64,000 bases of DNA from Deltaproteobacteria bacterium (GTDB lineage Bacteria > Myxococcota_A > Polyangia > Polyangiales > JADJMO01): contig JANYDK010000084.1 in NCBI GenBank assembly GCA_025363655.1, positions 62,001 through 126,000 of the forward strand, written 5' to 3'. The translations under genes were made by a program, and so were the position numbers. Positions 2,431 to 12,883 of this stretch are shown here, piece by piece. A model generated the notes under the pieces. That model had not been told where the DNA came from, made no database searches, and worked only from the letters and a program-made list of their open reading frames with translations. Position 1 is the first letter of the stretch; each line of letters begins with the position of its first letter.

Positions 2431-2474
2431 CTCGTCGACATCTCGCCGACATCTCGTCGACATCTCGTCAACGA
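2431..2474. repeat. Four 11-bp tandem repeats across the porin 3' end
   Basis: Four head-to-tail copies of CTCGTCGACAT (the second has one change, the fourth diverges at its end). The last copy overlaps the stop codon of the porin gene (2468-2470). Read on the minus strand the unit is ATGTCGACGAG, almost identical to the start region of the downstream SDR gene (ATGTCGACGAAG). The 11-bp period is close to one helical turn and each copy holds the palindrome GTCGAC. Confidence 0.85.
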
Positions 2475-3865
2475 TACGAAGAGTTGAACCACCACTCGAC
2501 GCCGACACCGAAGAAGTGCTCGTCGCTGCGGCGGGCGAAGCGATCGTCGGGCGCGTAGAGCGCGCGGGCGCCGTCGTTGCGCGCGGTGTAGGCGTAGATG
2601 AGTCGGAACTGCGGGCGGGTGAAGCTGCCCTTGCCCGCAGGGGTGAGAAACGGCATGAGGCCGAGTCGCCAGAGATGTCCGCGGATGGGCGTGCCCGCGT
2701 CGTCGACTCCAGCGGCGGCGAGTGCCTGGTAACTGACCTCGCCGGCGACGCCGACGTGATCGCCCATCCACACCTGCGGTCGCACCACCAACGTGCCTTC
2801 GTTGTAGGTGTTTCGCGAATAGGCATTGCCGCTGGCGTCGCGGAATCCACGGAGATAACCGCCGACGATCACCCCGAATGGGCCATTCTCGTAATTGGCA
2901 CTCAGCGCGACGAGGGCTTCGTGCGCGCCATTGGTGGTGTGGTCGGCGGCGAGCGCCGAGGGGAGTGTCTTGTCGCCATAGGCCGCGATGCCGGTGGCGT
3001 AGCGGAGAAAGAGATTGACGAAGGTGTCGCGCTTGCCGGTGAAATAGCCGAGTTGCGCGCCGACGACGGTGCCGCGCTCGGCCGGAAGCAGCTCTTTGTC
3101 GCCGCTGTCGGTGGTGCGGTTGCCCTTGGCGATGGAGTGCTGCTCACCATACGCGACGAACTTGAGACCGCCGCTCTCGCCCATCTTCTCGATGTGCGTC
3201 GCCTTGCCGCTGACGATGAGGCGCGGCCGATCGAGGGTGATGACGTCGGTCGCACCGAAGCCGGTGGGAGACGATGACGGGCGCTGTTGGAAGGAGAACG
3301 GATCGAGCGCGCGACCGAGGCCGGCGTGGAAGGCAAGGGTCGTCTTCTCGTCGTCGTCGAGCGCCAGCTTCACGCCACCGCCGACCGTGTTGATGTTGTC
3401 GAGGGGCCAGAAATCGAGGAGATAGACGTCGTCGCCGCGGTACATGCGCGAGCCGACCCAAGCGGAGAATCCCTTGTAGAAGATTCCGCCGGTCTCCGCG
3501 TAGAGGTTGCGAATCGCCAGCTTGGCGTCGAATTGCCCCGTCTCGTGGAAGAGCGGTCCGGCGATGGCGATGGTGGTGACGATCTTGGTCCAGATCTTCC
3601 CGTCGCCATAGTCGGCTGCATAGCGGTCTTTGCGCTCGAGCTGCAGCTCGGCATAGGTCGACTCGTCGATGCGGGTGCCGTGCGAGACGATGTTCGCCTG
3701 GCGCCCGCTCCCGCCGCGGAGGTCGCTCGCGGAGATGACGCGACCGTAGGAGCCGAAGGAGAACTCGCCTGCGTCGGCGCGCGCCGTTTCGGCAGTCGAG
3801 ACCAGGGCGAGCGTGAGAGACGCGGAGAGCGCGAAGATCGCAGGACGGAGCGCGGAAGATTTCAT
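2468..3865 (-). CDS. Maltoporin-like (LamB family) outer-membrane sugar porin
   Basis: A 465-residue protein with a cleavable signal peptide (predicted cut after ETARA, residue 30) and then alternating beta-strand sequence to the end. The start of the barrel (GEFSFGSYGRV), the SAWVGSRMYRGDDVYLLDFW segment around 140-160 and the aromatic C-terminus match the LamB/carbohydrate porin family, which forms trimeric channels for maltodextrins. It starts 17 bases after the stop of the GH15/GH13 amylase gene, so the two almost certainly form an operon: polymer cleavage followed by uptake of oligosaccharides across the outer membrane. No inner-membrane maltodextrin transporter is in the window. Family call confident, exact substrate inferred from the operon. 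Confidence 0.85.
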   Translation of the reverse strand: MKSSALRPAIFALSASLTLALVSTAETARADAGEFSFGSYGRVISASDLRGGSGRQANIVSHGTRIDESTYAELQLERKDRYAADYGDGKIWTKIVTTIAIAGPLFHETGQFDAKLAIRNLYAETGGIFYKGFSAWVGSRMYRGDDVYLLDFWPLDNINTVGGGVKLALDDDEKTTLAFHAGLGRALDPFSFQQRPSSSPTGFGATDVITLDRPRLIVSGKATHIEKMGESGGLKFVAYGEQHSIAKGNRTTDSGDKELLPAERGTVVGAQLGYFTGKRDTFVNLFLRYATGIAAYGDKTLPSALAADHTTNGAHEALVALSANYENGPFGVIVGGYLRGFRDASGNAYSRNTYNEGTLVVRPQVWMGDHVGVAGEVSYQALAAAGVDDAGTPIRGHLWRLGLMPFLTPAGKGSFTRPQFRLIYAYTARNDGARALYAPDDRFARRSDEHFFGVGVEWWFNSSYR

Positions 3866-3882: not shown

Positions 3883-6800
3883 TTAGAGCGTGTAGAGCGA
3901 GGCCCCGCGGGGCGTGAACGGAACGTCGATGGCGCCGGCAGTCACGGTCACGGCGGGTCCGCCGAGCAAGTCTTTCAAGATCGTACCGTCGGCGATTCCG
4001 AGGCTCGGGTCGAGGGCTACGTGCACGACGCGGGAGGTGGTGCCGCGATTGAGGGCGACGATCACCGCGTCGATGGAGGCGCCCCGAGAGAAGACGTAGC
4101 CGTCGCCATCGAGGTAAAGCGACTTGCGCGCGCCGCGACGGAGGCCGGGAAGTGTGCCGCGCGCCTTGGCGACGATCTTCACGCGATCGAGGAGCTTCTG
4201 CTCCCGCGCCGAGAGCGCGCCGGCGAACCGCATCATCCGTCGGTTGTCCGGATCGGCGGTGCCCGGTTGGCCGATCTCGTCACCATCGTAAATCAGCGGA
4301 ACACCCTTCTGGGTGAGGAGGAACGTGAACGCGAGGAAGAGGCGATCGTACGGCTCGTCGGTGCTCGGCGCGGTCGGCGGCGCGCTCCAAGCCTGCGTCG
4401 TCGTGTCGGAGGCGATTTGGCCGGCGGCGCGCGAGAGGAAGCGGGTGACGTCGTGATTGCCGAGGAACGGCGACATCACCGCCCCCGGAACGTACCCCGC
4501 CTCACCCGCCGCGACCGCGCTCTCGAGATCGCTCATCGTCCCGGCGTTGGCCGCGAAGACCGAGTCGATGGTCCAATAGAGGGGAAAGTCGAATTGCCCC
4601 CAAAGGGCTTCGTTACCCACGTAGCGATTGATGAGCGGGCGCCCATCGGTGCCGGTGAAGGTCTCGCCGACGAGCCAATAGCGCGCGTTGCCGGTCTCGA
4701 GTTGGTTACGAATCTTGATGCGCAGAGTGGTGCTGGCGATGTCCTGCATGTGCTTGACGGCGTCGACCCGGAAGCCGTCGGCGTCGGCGTTCGAAAGCCA
4801 CCAAAGGGCATCGTCGGTCATCTGATCGACCGCGCCCATGTTCGTCCAATTGATGTCCGGGAGATAGCTGGTGAACCAACAGTCGGTCGCATGCGTGTCC
4901 CAGTCGCAGGAAGGCCCGCCGCAGACGCAGCTCCCGTCGCCGTTGAACCAGCCGTCCTTCTTGTGCGCGAGATAATACTCGTGCTCCTCGTGCAATTGGT
5001 TCTGCACCAAGTCGAGGATCACGCGAATGCCGTGCTTGTGGGCCGCGGCGGTGACCGCTCGGAGATCGGCGAGCGTGCCCCAATGCTCTTCGACCTTGCG
5101 CGCGCCGGTCGGCCAATATCCGTGATAGCCGCTGTATTGATGTCCGCCGGTGCCAATCCCCGATTTGCCGGTGTTGTCGTTGGGCGGAGAGAGCCAAATC
5201 GAGCGCACGCCGAGTGCGTCGAAATACCCGTCCTCGATGGCGGCGAGGACACCCTTGTAGTCACCGCCTTGGTAGTTGGCCCGCGCGTCGACCGAGGCGA
5301 GCGGGGCGTCGTTCGTCGGATCGCCGTCGCGGAAGCGATCGGTGAAGACGAAATAGAGCGGACCGTCCTCCCAGCGAAACGGCTCGAGCTCGACCCACAT
5401 CGGCACGATCAGCGGCAGAGCCGATTTTCCCGCCGAGTCTTTGGCGTCGAACGTATACGTGTATTTGTTCTTGGAGAGGCCCGTCTGGTGGAGATGGAGA
5501 CGCCCCGACTTGGCGTCGAACGTCGTCGCGACCTTCGCTCCGGCGAGCTGCGCCACGAGGCTCGCGAGATCGGGCCCCTTCGCCGAGGCCCCGTCGGTGT
5601 ACTGCACCTCGACGTCGAGCGTCCCATCTGGTTTGGCCTCCGCGGAGACGACGGTGAGCAGCGGTGATTGGCAATCACCGACGTCGACGCGCGAATTCTC
5701 GGTCCCCGCGACGTATCGCGTGTAGCGGGTGCCTGGATCGAACCGATAGTCGGTCCCGTCGACGACGAACTTGTATCCGTAGCTCCCGGCGGCAATCGTC
5801 AATTCTGCGCGATACGTCCCGGTGCCGAGCCCATCGGTCATCGCCGTCTTCTTCGCGAACCCATCCCACTCCCCGATGAGCTCCACTTTCGCGCCGGCCC
5901 GCCCGAGCGGAAAGCGGAAAGAAGTTTGGCAATCACGGAGAGGAATCGTACCCGGCGGGGGAGGAGGCGCGTCGACGATGGGCGTATCGGAGGCGCCATC
6001 GGGAGGGCTCGAAGAGTCGAGACCATCGAGCGCAGTGTCGACGAGGACGACGTCCCCAGGCCCCGCGTCGGCGTCGGGAGTGGAGGGCTCGTCCTTGGGG
6101 TTCTCGTTGGCACAGCCGATCGACCACGAGAGGGACGACGCGAGGAGGAGGGCCGCGCCCGCCTTCGCGCTCGTGCGGTCACGCTTTCGGCGAAGCCAAA
6201 CCGCGCCCAGCCCCAAAGCGGCCAGCCACCACCGATTGGAATGGGTTTCTGTCTTCATGGTGCAACTACACCCGCTCTTGGAATCCTGGCCTGGCGGCGC
6301 TGAGGCGGTGTCGCTCGCGCTCGTGTCGGTCATCGCCGCGTCCGCGCCGGCATCGCTCGCAGCGTCGTCGATCGACGTCTCCGCCCCAGCATCCGTCGGC
6401 GTCGGGCCGGCGTCGGGATCGGGTTCGATCGTCGTCACGTCCGGTCCCTCTTTGGGAAAGCAGGGGTCGGTGGCGCCGACGAGCGAAGCATCGGCGCGAT
6501 CGAGGAGCGCGTGCATGTAGGCGCCGGCGCCGAAGCCGACCATCGGAATCGCGCCCGCGTAATCGGCGGTCTCACGGGTGAAGAGCTCGGGGACGAGATC
6601 GTAGTTCTGTACGGCTTGCGCGGTGATCCATCCGAGCAGCTTCGCGGCCTCGCGTTTTCTGCCCATGCGATGGAGCGCGGTGGCGACGCGCAAGTCGATG
6701 AAGGCCCATTCCTGCGAATCGTATCCGCCGCCGTCGTCGTTGCGGAAGTAGCCGAAGCCCGTCGGTGCGCGCAGCGGCTCGAGATCGGCGATCAGCTTCT

Positions 6801-8409
6801 GGGCGCGCTCGCCGAGCGGGTTGACGAGCCCCCAGGCGATGGCCTCGATGACCGCCGCGTCCCGCGCTCCGTTGCCGTCTTTTCCTGCAGCGGCGAGCTC
6901 TTCGAGGCTCTGCGCGAGGCCCCCCGTGGGGAGCACGAGGTTCTTCAAGATGGCGTCGCGAATCGAGAGTGCGCTCTTCGCGTCGCCGGCGTCGCAGAGG
7001 CCACGGGCAGCAGCGAGAGAGGTATACGTGTAGTGCTTCTGTTTGCCATTCCAATGCACCTCCCAAATGCTGCTGTCGGCTTTGAGGAGTCCGTTCGCCG
7101 GATCGACGAGGGCGCGGAGGGTGTCGGCGTTGGCGTCGAGATCTTTGCGACCGGCGGCGTGCGCGGCCCACGTCGCGAGGCCGAAGCCGTCGAATTCGAC
7201 GTTGGGGCCATCTGCATTGGAGTCGCTCTCTTCGGTGCCGTCACCGAAATAGCGGACGACCGATACGTGGTAATCGGTGCCGACGTAACTCTTGTAGCCA
7301 CCGACCTTGGCGCCGGCGAAGAAGTCGATCGCCGCGTCGGCCTCTGCCTTGTGCCCGGCGCGCGCGAGGGCGGCGGTGGCGTAGCTCATGTCGCGCGCCC
7401 AGGTGATCCACCAAATACCCGGTGGCATCGCGGCGACGATCTGTCCCTTCGCCGGAGCGGCCATCCGCGTCTGCGCCATGCGCAAAATCGCCTCGGATTG
7501 CCGCCAAACGGCGAGCTCGTCGGCGTTCGTGCCGGCGGGAGGCTTCACGCGCCAGGCTTCCCACGCGGCGCGTTCGTCGGTGACGAGCTTGTCGGCGCTG
7601 CGACCGGCGACGTACGTGCGAGCGGCCGTGTCGTCGCCCAGCGTCAGCACCACACCGACCCAACGCGTCTCTCCGGGAGCGAGCTTGCTCAGGCTCCACT
7701 CGAAGCCGGCCACTGCGTCGTCGACCACGCCCGAGTCGGTGACGTCGACCAGCTCACCGCCTGCTTTGACGATCGAATAGGGGTTCTTCGGCGAGGCGCC
7801 GTGGTGACGGGAAGCACCGAGCGCGAGATAGCGCGCCGTGAGCCCAGACGGGCCCGTTTCGCTGAACGTGTCGTGCGCCGCGTCGTAGGTGACGTGCTCG
7901 CCAGCGCTGCCGGGCTCGGGCGCGCCGCTGCCGAGGTGAAGATTGAAGAGCGAATAGGCCGCGGCGTCGTTCTGCGCCACGCCAGAGTCGTTGGTCACCG
8001 AGAGGGCGAGGACCACGCACGGCGCTTCGAGACCGAACGGTGAGAATGCGTAGGTGCGCGTCGTCAGCGCGCCGACGTGTTGCGTGGTTTCGACGATGCC
8101 TGCCTGATCGACGTATCGCATCGTGTCGACGGGCACCTCACCGAGCCAGCTCCCCTCGCCGCCGCTGCGCACGCCGAAGTAGGCGTCGTAGACGACGTCG
8201 CGTGAGGCGACGCCGGCGCTACGAAACGCGTAGGGAGCTTCGGTGAGCGTGACGAGCCGTCCGCTCACTCCGTCGACCACGCCGAAGCCGTAGCCGTTGC
8301 CGATGCTGGCTTGATGGAACGACGTGTGCGGGACCGCCGCGGTGGCGCTGCCTGCGCAGAGCCCCGAAACGGTGGCGATGGTGAGGAGCGAACGGACGAC
8401 GTAACGCAT
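3883..8409 (-). CDS. Fused glucoamylase (GH15) / alpha-amylase (GH13) with internal sorting signals
   Basis: A 1508-residue exported enzyme. Residues 1-24 are a signal peptide. Residues about 30-670 resemble bacterial glucoamylase (GH15): WARDMSYATAA, SSIWEVHWNGKQ and LVPELFTRET. An Asp/Thr/Ala linker leads to a MYXO-CTERM-like segment at 713-743: GCSC (Cys714, Cys716), a hydrophobic stretch and RRKR. A second hydrophobic stretch ends in a lipobox, SIGC (Cys766), followed by another acidic linker. Residues about 830-930 look like a CBM48-type starch-binding domain. The GH13 alpha-amylase domain fills about 1030-1500, with nucleophile Asp1216 (GFRVDAVKH), acid/base Glu1249 (VGETF) and Asp1320 (LGNHDVTR). 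It therefore looks like two proteins joined without a stop. The frame is open throughout; a natural fusion, or an indel joining two genes, are both possible. Confidence 0.9.
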   Translation of the reverse strand: MRYVVRSLLTIATVSGLCAGSATAAVPHTSFHQASIGNGYGFGVVDGVSGRLVTLTEAPYAFRSAGVASRDVVYDAYFGVRSGGEGSWLGEVPVDTMRYVDQAGIVETTQHVGALTTRTYAFSPFGLEAPCVVLALSVTNDSGVAQNDAAAYSLFNLHLGSGAPEPGSAGEHVTYDAAHDTFSETGPSGLTARYLALGASRHHGASPKNPYSIVKAGGELVDVTDSGVVDDAVAGFEWSLSKLAPGETRWVGVVLTLGDDTAARTYVAGRSADKLVTDERAAWEAWRVKPPAGTNADELAVWRQSEAILRMAQTRMAAPAKGQIVAAMPPGIWWITWARDMSYATAALARAGHKAEADAAIDFFAGAKVGGYKSYVGTDYHVSVVRYFGDGTEESDSNADGPNVEFDGFGLATWAAHAAGRKDLDANADTLRALVDPANGLLKADSSIWEVHWNGKQKHYTYTSLAAARGLCDAGDAKSALSIRDAILKNLVLPTGGLAQSLEELAAAGKDGNGARDAAVIEAIAWGLVNPLGERAQKLIADLEPLRAPTGFGYFRNDDGGGYDSQEWAFIDLRVATALHRMGRKREAAKLLGWITAQAVQNYDLVPELFTRETADYAGAIPMVGFGAGAYMHALLDRADASLVGATDPCFPKEGPDVTTIEPDPDAGPTPTDAGAETSIDDAASDAGADAAMTDTSASDTASAPPGQDSKSGCSCTMKTETHSNRWWLAALGLGAVWLRRKRDRTSAKAGAALLLASSLSWSIGCANENPKDEPSTPDADAGPGDVVLVDTALDGLDSSSPPDGASDTPIVDAPPPPPGTIPLRDCQTSFRFPLGRAGAKVELIGEWDGFAKKTAMTDGLGTGTYRAELTIAAGSYGYKFVVDGTDYRFDPGTRYTRYVAGTENSRVDVGDCQSPLLTVVSAEAKPDGTLDVEVQYTDGASAKGPDLASLVAQLAGAKVATTFDAKSGRLHLHQTGLSKNKYTYTFDAKDSAGKSALPLIVPMWVELEPFRWEDGPLYFVFTDRFRDGDPTNDAPLASVDARANYQGGDYKGVLAAIEDGYFDALGVRSIWLSPPNDNTGKSGIGTGGHQYSGYHGYWPTGARKVEEHWGTLADLRAVTAAAHKHGIRVILDLVQNQLHEEHEYYLAHKKDGWFNGDGSCVCGGPSCDWDTHATDCWFTSYLPDINWTNMGAVDQMTDDALWWLSNADADGFRVDAVKHMQDIASTTLRIKIRNQLETGNARYWLVGETFTGTDGRPLINRYVGNEALWGQFDFPLYWTIDSVFAANAGTMSDLESAVAAGEAGYVPGAVMSPFLGNHDVTRFLSRAAGQIASDTTTQAWSAPPTAPSTDEPYDRLFLAFTFLLTQKGVPLIYDGDEIGQPGTADPDNRRMMRFAGALSAREQKLLDRVKIVAKARGTLPGLRRGARKSLYLDGDGYVFSRGASIDAVIVALNRGTTSRVVHVALDPSLGIADGTILKDLLGGPAVTVTAGAIDVPFTPRGASLYTL

Positions 8410-11731: not shown

Positions 11732-12883
11732 TCAGGCCGGCAGCGGCGTATCGAGCGCGCGCCAGAGGTACCAAGCGCCGATCGAACGGAACGGACGCCA
11801 GGCTTCGGCGCGGCGAAGGAGCGCAGCGGGCGAAGGGAGTGAACGCAGTCGGAAGAGCTTCTGCGCGCCTTTGCGCACGCCGAGATCGGCGACCGGCATC
11901 ACGTCGGGTCGACCGAGCTCGAAGATGAGGAGCATCTCCACCGTCCATCGTCCGATGCCGCGCACCTCGCAGAGCGCCTCGACGACGCGCTCGTCGGGCA
12001 TGCGTGCGACGCGCTCGAGGGGCAGGCTCTTCTCGAGGACGCGCCTCGCCAAATCGTGGAGCGCCGCCGCCTTCGCGTGCGAGAGACCGACGGAGCGCAA
12101 TTCGTCGGCGGAGGTCGCGTGCACCTTCGCCGGCGCGTCGGGGCCGAAGCTCGCGGGATCGGCTTCACCGATCTTGGCGGCGACGCGGCCGAAGATCGTC
12201 GCCGCAGCCTTCACCGAGAGTTGCTGTCCAGCGATGGCGCGCGCGAGCGTGCGGAAGAGCTCCCCGCGCGGCGCGATCGGCAGCGGGCAGGGGATCGCGC
12301 GAATCAGCGGCGCAAGGACGGGATCGACGCGAGACAGGTGACGACGCGCGCGCGTGTGCTCTTCGTCGTCGAGCGAGCCTCCTTCGACCGTGAGAAGCGT
12401 CGCCTTCGTCGAGGTCCCGCCCGGCGCGGAGAAACCGCCGCTGTCGTGCGCGCCGACTACGCGATGGCAGGGCGTGACGATCGGGTGCGGGTTCCTGCCC
12501 ATCGCGACGCCGATCGCGCGCGCGGAGACGGTATTCACCTTGGCGGCGAGCTCGGCGTAGGTCGACGTCGTCCCGCGCGGAATGCGACGCGTCTCCGCGT
12601 AGACGCCGCGCGCGAACGGCGAGAGCTCATCGTCGTCGAGACGAATGTCGTCGTAGTCGACGTCTTCACCGCCGAGGTGCGCGGTGACACGGGCCGCGAG
12701 CTCTTCGGCAGCGACGTCGTCGGCGATGCGCGACGCGCCTGCTCGTCGCAACGTCGCCGCGGTGTCGACGGTGGGGAGAACGACGCGCGCGAGGCCGCGA
12801 TCGGAGAAGACGAGACCGACGTCGCCGATGGCGGTGGGGACGAGACGAGAGCGGAGGCCGGGGGAGGGCGAGGGCTTGGCCAC
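11732..12883 (-). CDS. Fused O6-alkylguanine-DNA alkyltransferase / 3-methyladenine DNA glycosylase (Ogt-AlkA)
   Basis: A 383-residue cytosolic DNA repair protein with two enzyme domains. Residues 1-170 are an Ogt/MGMT alkyltransferase: IPRGTTSTYAELA, then the active site PCHRVV with acceptor Cys139. Residues about 190-383 are an AlkA-like HhH-GPD glycosylase: helix-hairpin-helix LCEVRGIGRWTVEML (304-318) and catalytic Asp333 in PVADLG. One chain could thus remove alkyl groups from O6-guanine by self-alkylation and excise N-alkylated purines. E. coli has these as separate proteins. The start is 9 bases from the stop of the upstream P450 gene on the same strand. No Ada-type regulatory N-terminus is present. 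Confidence 0.92.
   Translation of the reverse strand: MAKPSPSPGLRSRLVPTAIGDVGLVFSDRGLARVVLPTVDTAATLRRAGASRIADDVAAEELAARVTAHLGGEDVDYDDIRLDDDELSPFARGVYAETRRIPRGTTSTYAELAAKVNTVSARAIGVAMGRNPHPIVTPCHRVVGAHDSGGFSAPGGTSTKATLLTVEGGSLDDEEHTRARRHLSRVDPVLAPLIRAIPCPLPIAPRGELFRTLARAIAGQQLSVKAAATIFGRVAAKIGEADPASFGPDAPAKVHATSADELRSVGLSHAKAAALHDLARRVLEKSLPLERVARMPDERVVEALCEVRGIGRWTVEMLLIFELGRPDVMPVADLGVRKGAQKLFRLRSLPSPAALLRRAEAWRPFRSIGAWYLWRALDTPLPA

Follow-up and report, generated by a model that had tools for sequence, protein, structure and literature searches.

A single ATG-to-stop frame of 1508 residues on the minus strand (3883-8409, ATG at 8409) of the 64,000-nucleotide stretch of DNA analysed here, hereafter the window, encodes a GH15-like, glucoamylase-type enzyme and a GH13 alpha-amylase that are joined through a MYXO-CTERM-like sorting signal running directly into a lipoprotein signal peptide. 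Joints of this kind are found repeatedly, in unrelated genes throughout the phylum, and it is probable that some of the surface proteins carrying them start as a single chain that is then cut into two. For the window we judge it fairly likely that overlapping genes have fused to encode a bacterial polyprotein, whose joint would form a hairpin with both enzymes facing outside and would be cut by myxosortase and Lgt/LspA into two anchored enzymes. We also lean, if only slightly, towards a broader reading in which the in-frame MYXO-CTERM/lipobox joint would be a general maturation device of Myxococcota, with unrelated surface polyproteins cleaved by myxosortase and LspA to give a pair of lipid-anchored proteins in a fixed 1:1 ratio, and with at least one of the fused genes old and conserved across classes.

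The fused gene and its two internal signals

The fused frame, whose plus-strand reading contains stops, follows the domain order given by the sequence-only reading (signal peptide, GH15-like domain, MYXO-CTERM-like motif, lipobox, CBM48-like domain, GH13), here confirmed by Pfam matches and inspection; all features below lie on the minus strand. The N-terminal Sec signal peptide (residues 1-25, MRYVVRSLLTIATVSGLCAGSATAA; 8335..8409) is of SPase I type by inspection, with a hydrophobic window at residues 4-18, and is followed by the GH15-like catalytic domain (about residues 26-650; 6460..8334). Glyco_hydro_15 (PF00723) scores 21.6 bits over the whole chain and 24.3 bits over the N-terminal part alone, against a cut-off of 22, and is matched by all nine GH15-like relatives, in whose alignment the candidate acids E450 (SIWEVHW) and E567 (SQEW) are invariant. 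A profile of the nine relatives matches dextran dextrinase 9ju0 (E 9.5e-13), and phmmer returned no PDB chain for the GH15 part of the window alone. Acidic linkers stand on either side of the joint, one of low complexity before the sorting tag (residues 651-711; 6277..6459) and one past the lipobox (residues 767-825; 5935..6111). The second half comprises a CBM48/AMPK1_CBM-like domain (PF16561, 31.4 bits; residues 837-911; 5677..5901) and the GH13 catalytic domain (PF00128, 129.8 bits; residues 1020-1385; 4255..5352), which carries the motifs GFRVDAVKH, GETF and FLGNHD and resembles alpha-amylases such as 4e2o (E 5.4e-51).

On the same strand, 17 nt beyond the end of the fused frame, comes a LamB-type maltoporin gene (2468..3865; PF02264, 108 bits), which identifies this as a starch-use locus; the two genes likely form one operon. 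A second GH13 match, in an 822-aa open frame near the LamB gene and just beyond the window (G000:C49:60153-61763, G000 being the genome of the window), suggests a larger starch-use cluster around it. Elsewhere in the window, methylguanine-methyltransferase DNA-binding and HhH-GPD glycosylase domains share one minus-strand frame (11732-12883), apparently a fused DNA repair enzyme.

At the joint itself, residues 712-743 (6181..6276) display the tripartite MYXO-CTERM architecture of SGCSC (Cys714/716), hydrophobic run and RRKR. This signal scores 14.0, 15.1 and 16.1 bits against TIGR03901, below the curated cut-off of 20, and 765 residues follow where a C-terminus would be expected. The type II signal peptide that comes next (residues 744-766 of 1508; 6112..6180), recognised from sequence and hydropathy at RRKRDRTSAKAGAALLLASSLSWSIGC, features a basic n-region, a hydrophobic run, a small residue and the lipobox cysteine (SIG-Cys766). 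Ser is not the commonest residue at position -3 of a lipobox. The run at residues 752-766 is one of the chain's four most hydrophobic 15-residue windows, and the signal's counterpart in separate-gene relatives is N-terminal. Between the two helices, the short basic loop RRKRDRTSAKA (residues 740-750; 6160..6192) combines the Arg tail of the first signal with the n-region of the second and would lie on the cytoplasmic side. The residue numbers first assigned to these motifs (SGCSC 712-716, RRKR 740-743, SIGC 763-766) proved exact, and the GTG at 6180-6182 does sit in a different frame, as had been said.

Separate and fused genes across the phylum

Searches of the order, with loci extracted, placed GH13 downstream of GH15 in about 20 genomes. 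In about 17 relatives the enzymes are encoded by two adjacent genes, a MYXO-CTERM GH15 and a lipoprotein GH13, mostly with a 4-nt overlap (ATGA or GTGA). TIGR03901 reaches at least 20 bits at nine of the ten separate-gene GH15 ends tested and 19.5 bits at the tenth; in the closest relative, G004, the genes overlap by 4 nt, with ends ALRRRGGAR-stop and MKRFGVLGGALVLVALAGEIGC. An in-frame GH15/GH13 joint is found in three lineages, namely the window's genome, G017 (which matches the fused product across residues 2-1505 at 45% identity) and G010; its MYXO-CTERM part scores 19.8 bits in G017, just below the cut-off, and 20.3 bits in G010, just above it. That relatives show both signals where gene 1 ends and gene 2 begins, and that two other lineages have them in frame, indicates that the two-signal joint exceeds chance. 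In a concatenated GH15 and GH13 tree the three fused lineages fall in different well-supported clades with separate-gene neighbours, and the starred branches force three state changes; as the separate state is the common one, we read these as three separate fusions, although the tree itself is blind to gain versus loss. The proposal that two genes have fused is thereby supported by the same fusion on separate branches in two other lineages, and the expectation under which it would fail, that relatives all have two genes, holds for most of them but not for G017 and G010. A fourth candidate amylase fusion, in G055 (L072/L092, G055:C76), was rejected as an N run spans the joint in frame, a mimic that calls for caution in automated fusion surveys.

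The same joint is present elsewhere in the window's genome, where TIGR03901 gives about 60 matches. Five of the 58 that were traced to the next stop are internal (the window, C58, C127, C25 and C71), and in all five a lipobox ending a hydrophobic run follows within about 10-25 residues. Two of the 30 best matches in four further genomes are likewise internal, both followed by a lipobox; all these counts were made without the lipobox in the query. Given a chance lipobox frequency of about 0.15 per 60 residues under a loose pattern, seven of seven would be expected at about 2e-6, a rough figure since not all seven fit that pattern. Examples of the joint are RRRR-AALVVAAAATLGGC in C25 and RRRR-AIASAAVATLGC in C71, and where the joint is short, one Arg cluster appears both to end the first signal and to supply the n-region of the second. 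A sixth, weak internal match (C7) is without Cys and was left uncounted. When MYXO-CTERM genes with a lipoprotein-like gene behind them were counted automatically, the 48 genes gave two overlapping pairs and six within 200 nt, so that five fused joints are not rare beside separate pairs. The C127, C25 and C71 frames (L159, L161 and L169; 2112, 2158 and 2266 aa) each apparently hold two similar lipoprotein-plus-MYXO-CTERM units in tandem, with the MYXO-CTERM/lipobox between them and a second MYXO-CTERM at the end; C127 and C25 are paralogue-like, and Kelch repeats occur in C71.

Beyond this genome, a profile built from seven joints (A1), with the lipobox included in the query, retrieved more than 20 further full-length joints, their sequences read, in 57 genomes of the order. 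With a 30-joint profile (A2) the set grew to cover further classes of the phylum, one example being a 1436-aa frame in G190, a genome of one contig. Joints also occur in the same class outside the window's order (L305, G254:C72; L269, G295:C70; L267, G221:C104). A conserved case is the C58 gene (L211, G000:C58:71000-79500), a 1464-aa frame whose product has no Pfam match and whose internal MYXO-CTERM is the genome's top TIGR03901 match, at 35.0-35.7 bits. A query restricted to the 495 residues past this joint, the joint itself being left out, matches 40 of the 57 genomes, and the gene is fused at 29 of the 30 loci examined. The lipobox Cys follows G or A in 29 of 29 of these joints and the MYXO Cys is found in 28 of 29, within reach of the pattern used, with an inter-helix loop of a few to about 60 residues. 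Both cysteines are retained in orthologues that are 36-63% identical to the query, which argues that both signals are used. At the only split locus, in G017, gene 1 ends in a normal MYXO-CTERM (GGCGCSVPRGDTNTGWLFAVPSLAGIAAFGWRRRSSRRDARTKAVK, then a stop) and gene 2 begins at an ATG with a normal lipoprotein start. As the amylase genes of G017 are fused but its C58-type genes are separate (L307, G017:C25:17000-22500), the fused or split state varies gene by gene. In G026 (L306, G026:C275) a C58-type second half occupies a frame of 630 aa, at whose start a helix is followed by an Arg cluster and a lipobox; this gene is either split or broken.

Proposed processing of the chain and alternative readings

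The enzymes that would process such a joint are encoded in the window's genome: myxosortase MrtC (NF040594, 246 bits; cut-off 195), LspA (90.9 bits; cut-off 74) and Lgt homologues (E 5e-30, below the curated cut-off). We propose that ancestral GH15 (MYXO-CTERM) and GH13 (lipoprotein) genes with overlapping stop and start were joined by a small indel into a 1508-aa preproprotein, the likely scar of that overlap being CGAAAGCGTGA (6179..6189), as identified by enumerating edits. The GH15 enzyme would be exported by Sec through the N-terminal signal until the MYXO-CTERM helix stops transfer and leaves the Arg loop in the cytoplasm; the lipoprotein signal would then use the Arg cluster as its n-region, and its helix would start transfer of GH13 and return to the periplasmic side at Cys766. 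Their topologies being complementary, the two signals would form a membrane hairpin with both enzymes outside. MrtC would cut behind Cys714/716 once this is lipidated, in line with the proposal for ordinary MYXO-CTERM proteins (PMC11980579), and Lgt and LspA would lipidate and cut at Cys766, so that the hairpin would be discarded and two separately lipid-anchored starch enzymes would remain outside in 1:1 amounts beside the maltoporin. Topology, lipidation, both cleavages and final location are predictions from sequence. Of the possible fates of the chain, processing at both motifs has the best support, given that both cysteines persist in many internal joints, including 28-29 of 29 of the C58 type.

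The first cleavage is the one most open to an alternative, as the window's MYXO-CTERM scores just 14-16 bits, whereas nine of ten separate-gene relatives reach the cut-off of 20, and the site may be weakening. Lgt and LspA might then act at Cys766 alone, releasing GH13 as a normal lipoprotein and leaving GH15 with the hairpin as a two-helix anchor and a decayed MYXO-CTERM. We regard this as rather unlikely, since the window retains SGCSC and RRKR, the equivalent joints of G010 and G017 score close to the cut-off on either side of it, and the C58 joint is the best MYXO-CTERM match of its genome. LspA is known to us to act only on N-terminal signal peptides and would here have to cut at an internal one. 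Neither motif need be cut at all if the hairpin tethers both enzymes stably at the outer face of the inner membrane, an arrangement that agrees with positive-inside topology and keeps both enzymes extracytoplasmic; a hairpin requires neither Cys, yet both are kept in nearly all internal joints seen, and enzymes held at the inner membrane would presumably miss extracellular starch, which makes an uncut fusion improbable.

A sequencing or assembly indel, with the organism possessing two overlapping genes and the window one base short, was addressed by enumerating every insertion or deletion of 1-2 nt and every substitution in the stretch from one signal to the other. One T inserted near 6184/6185 converts CGAAAGCGTGA to CGAAATGCGTGA and yields RRNA-stop and an ATG-started lipoprotein signal, MRDRTSAKAGAALLLASSLSWSIGC, with an 8-nt overlap, and the closest relative, G004, has two genes. 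No single substitution splits the fused gene, as stop and start would share one frame. The hidden indel suspected earlier would thus be sufficient in the window, where an error is possible, but it is a poor explanation for the G017 and G010 fusions, from which credible gene pairs are recovered only by 2-nt insertions (in G017 an inserted AT, for instance, brings back ATGA). No long homopolymer is present at the site in the window, and four more such joints lie in long unbroken frames of the same genome (2112-2266 aa for three of them, 1464 aa for C58), which makes an error less likely for the window as well. The window fusion is known from one assembly of 150 contigs, the search matches including no second genome of its genus, which weakens the case for it. 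On balance we consider an indel unlikely. Separate production of GH13 by internal initiation within the fused frame is very improbable, as the in-frame ATG (about residue 718) and TTG codons upstream of the lipobox precede or fall within the first helix and would give a product with a double hydrophobic start, and in G010 the only ATG, GTG or TTG between MYXO Cys and lipobox is an ATG that precedes the Cys by four codons, which leaves too little room for a signal peptide.

If the joint is processed at both motifs, as we favour, a single basic loop can belong both to a C-terminal sorting tag and to an N-terminal lipoprotein signal, an operon can be turned into one gene at little cost, and myxosortase and LspA acquire a new type of substrate. 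To our knowledge, bacterial envelope proteins have rarely been described as polyproteins, and in annotation joint-bearing genes resemble single odd multidomain proteins.

Comparison with known systems

We know of no internal LPXTG or ArtA-type signal that is followed by a second signal starting another anchored protein. Internal signals of these two kinds are cited in PMC11980579 (LPXTG, Navarre and Schneewind 1994; an ArtA substrate, Abdul Halim 2017); as reported there at second hand, they are tripartite and work away from the C-terminus, and they depend on different enzymes. The NCBIfam 'lipo-invert' C-terminal anchoring domain (NF058595), compared by score alone, matches weakly over hairpin and lipobox, at 15-19 bits against a cut-off of 37. 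With bacterial lipoproteins processed by Lgt and LspA the joint shares the basic n-region, the hydrophobic run and the small residue before Cys, but in the window the signal is internal, after a whole enzyme and another membrane helix. In the open-licence literature we found no description of a MYXO-CTERM directly before a lipobox or of its recurrence, and nothing similar under internal lipobox, polyprotein or inverted lipoprotein.

The closest known system is that of MYXO-CTERM and myxosortase (TIGR03901; MrtX/MrtC), with which the window has in common the Cys motif, the hydrophobic run, the Arg cluster and an MrtC in the genome, and of which the separate-gene GH15 relatives are ordinary members; the window's signal differs in being internal and below the cut-off. 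MrtX cleaves MYXO-CTERM, also in E. coli (PMC11980579), and the joint offers a cheap test, with one chain, two cysteines and two known enzymes. An internal MYXO-CTERM has itself been published: MXAN_5598 of Myxococcus xanthus carries one, ascribed to a fusion of two genes and with processing proposed, and its second half is an outer-membrane beta-barrel with an OmpA domain (PMC11980579). What we did not find described in the open-licence literature is the MYXO-CTERM/lipobox joint, and likewise its recurrence. Like MXAN_5598, the window has an in-frame, mid-chain MYXO-CTERM followed by a second exported protein, with gene fusion and processing proposed for both; MXAN_5598, for which no lipobox is mentioned, stands as a single case, whereas the kind of joint found in the window is recurrent and, in the C58 gene, conserved.
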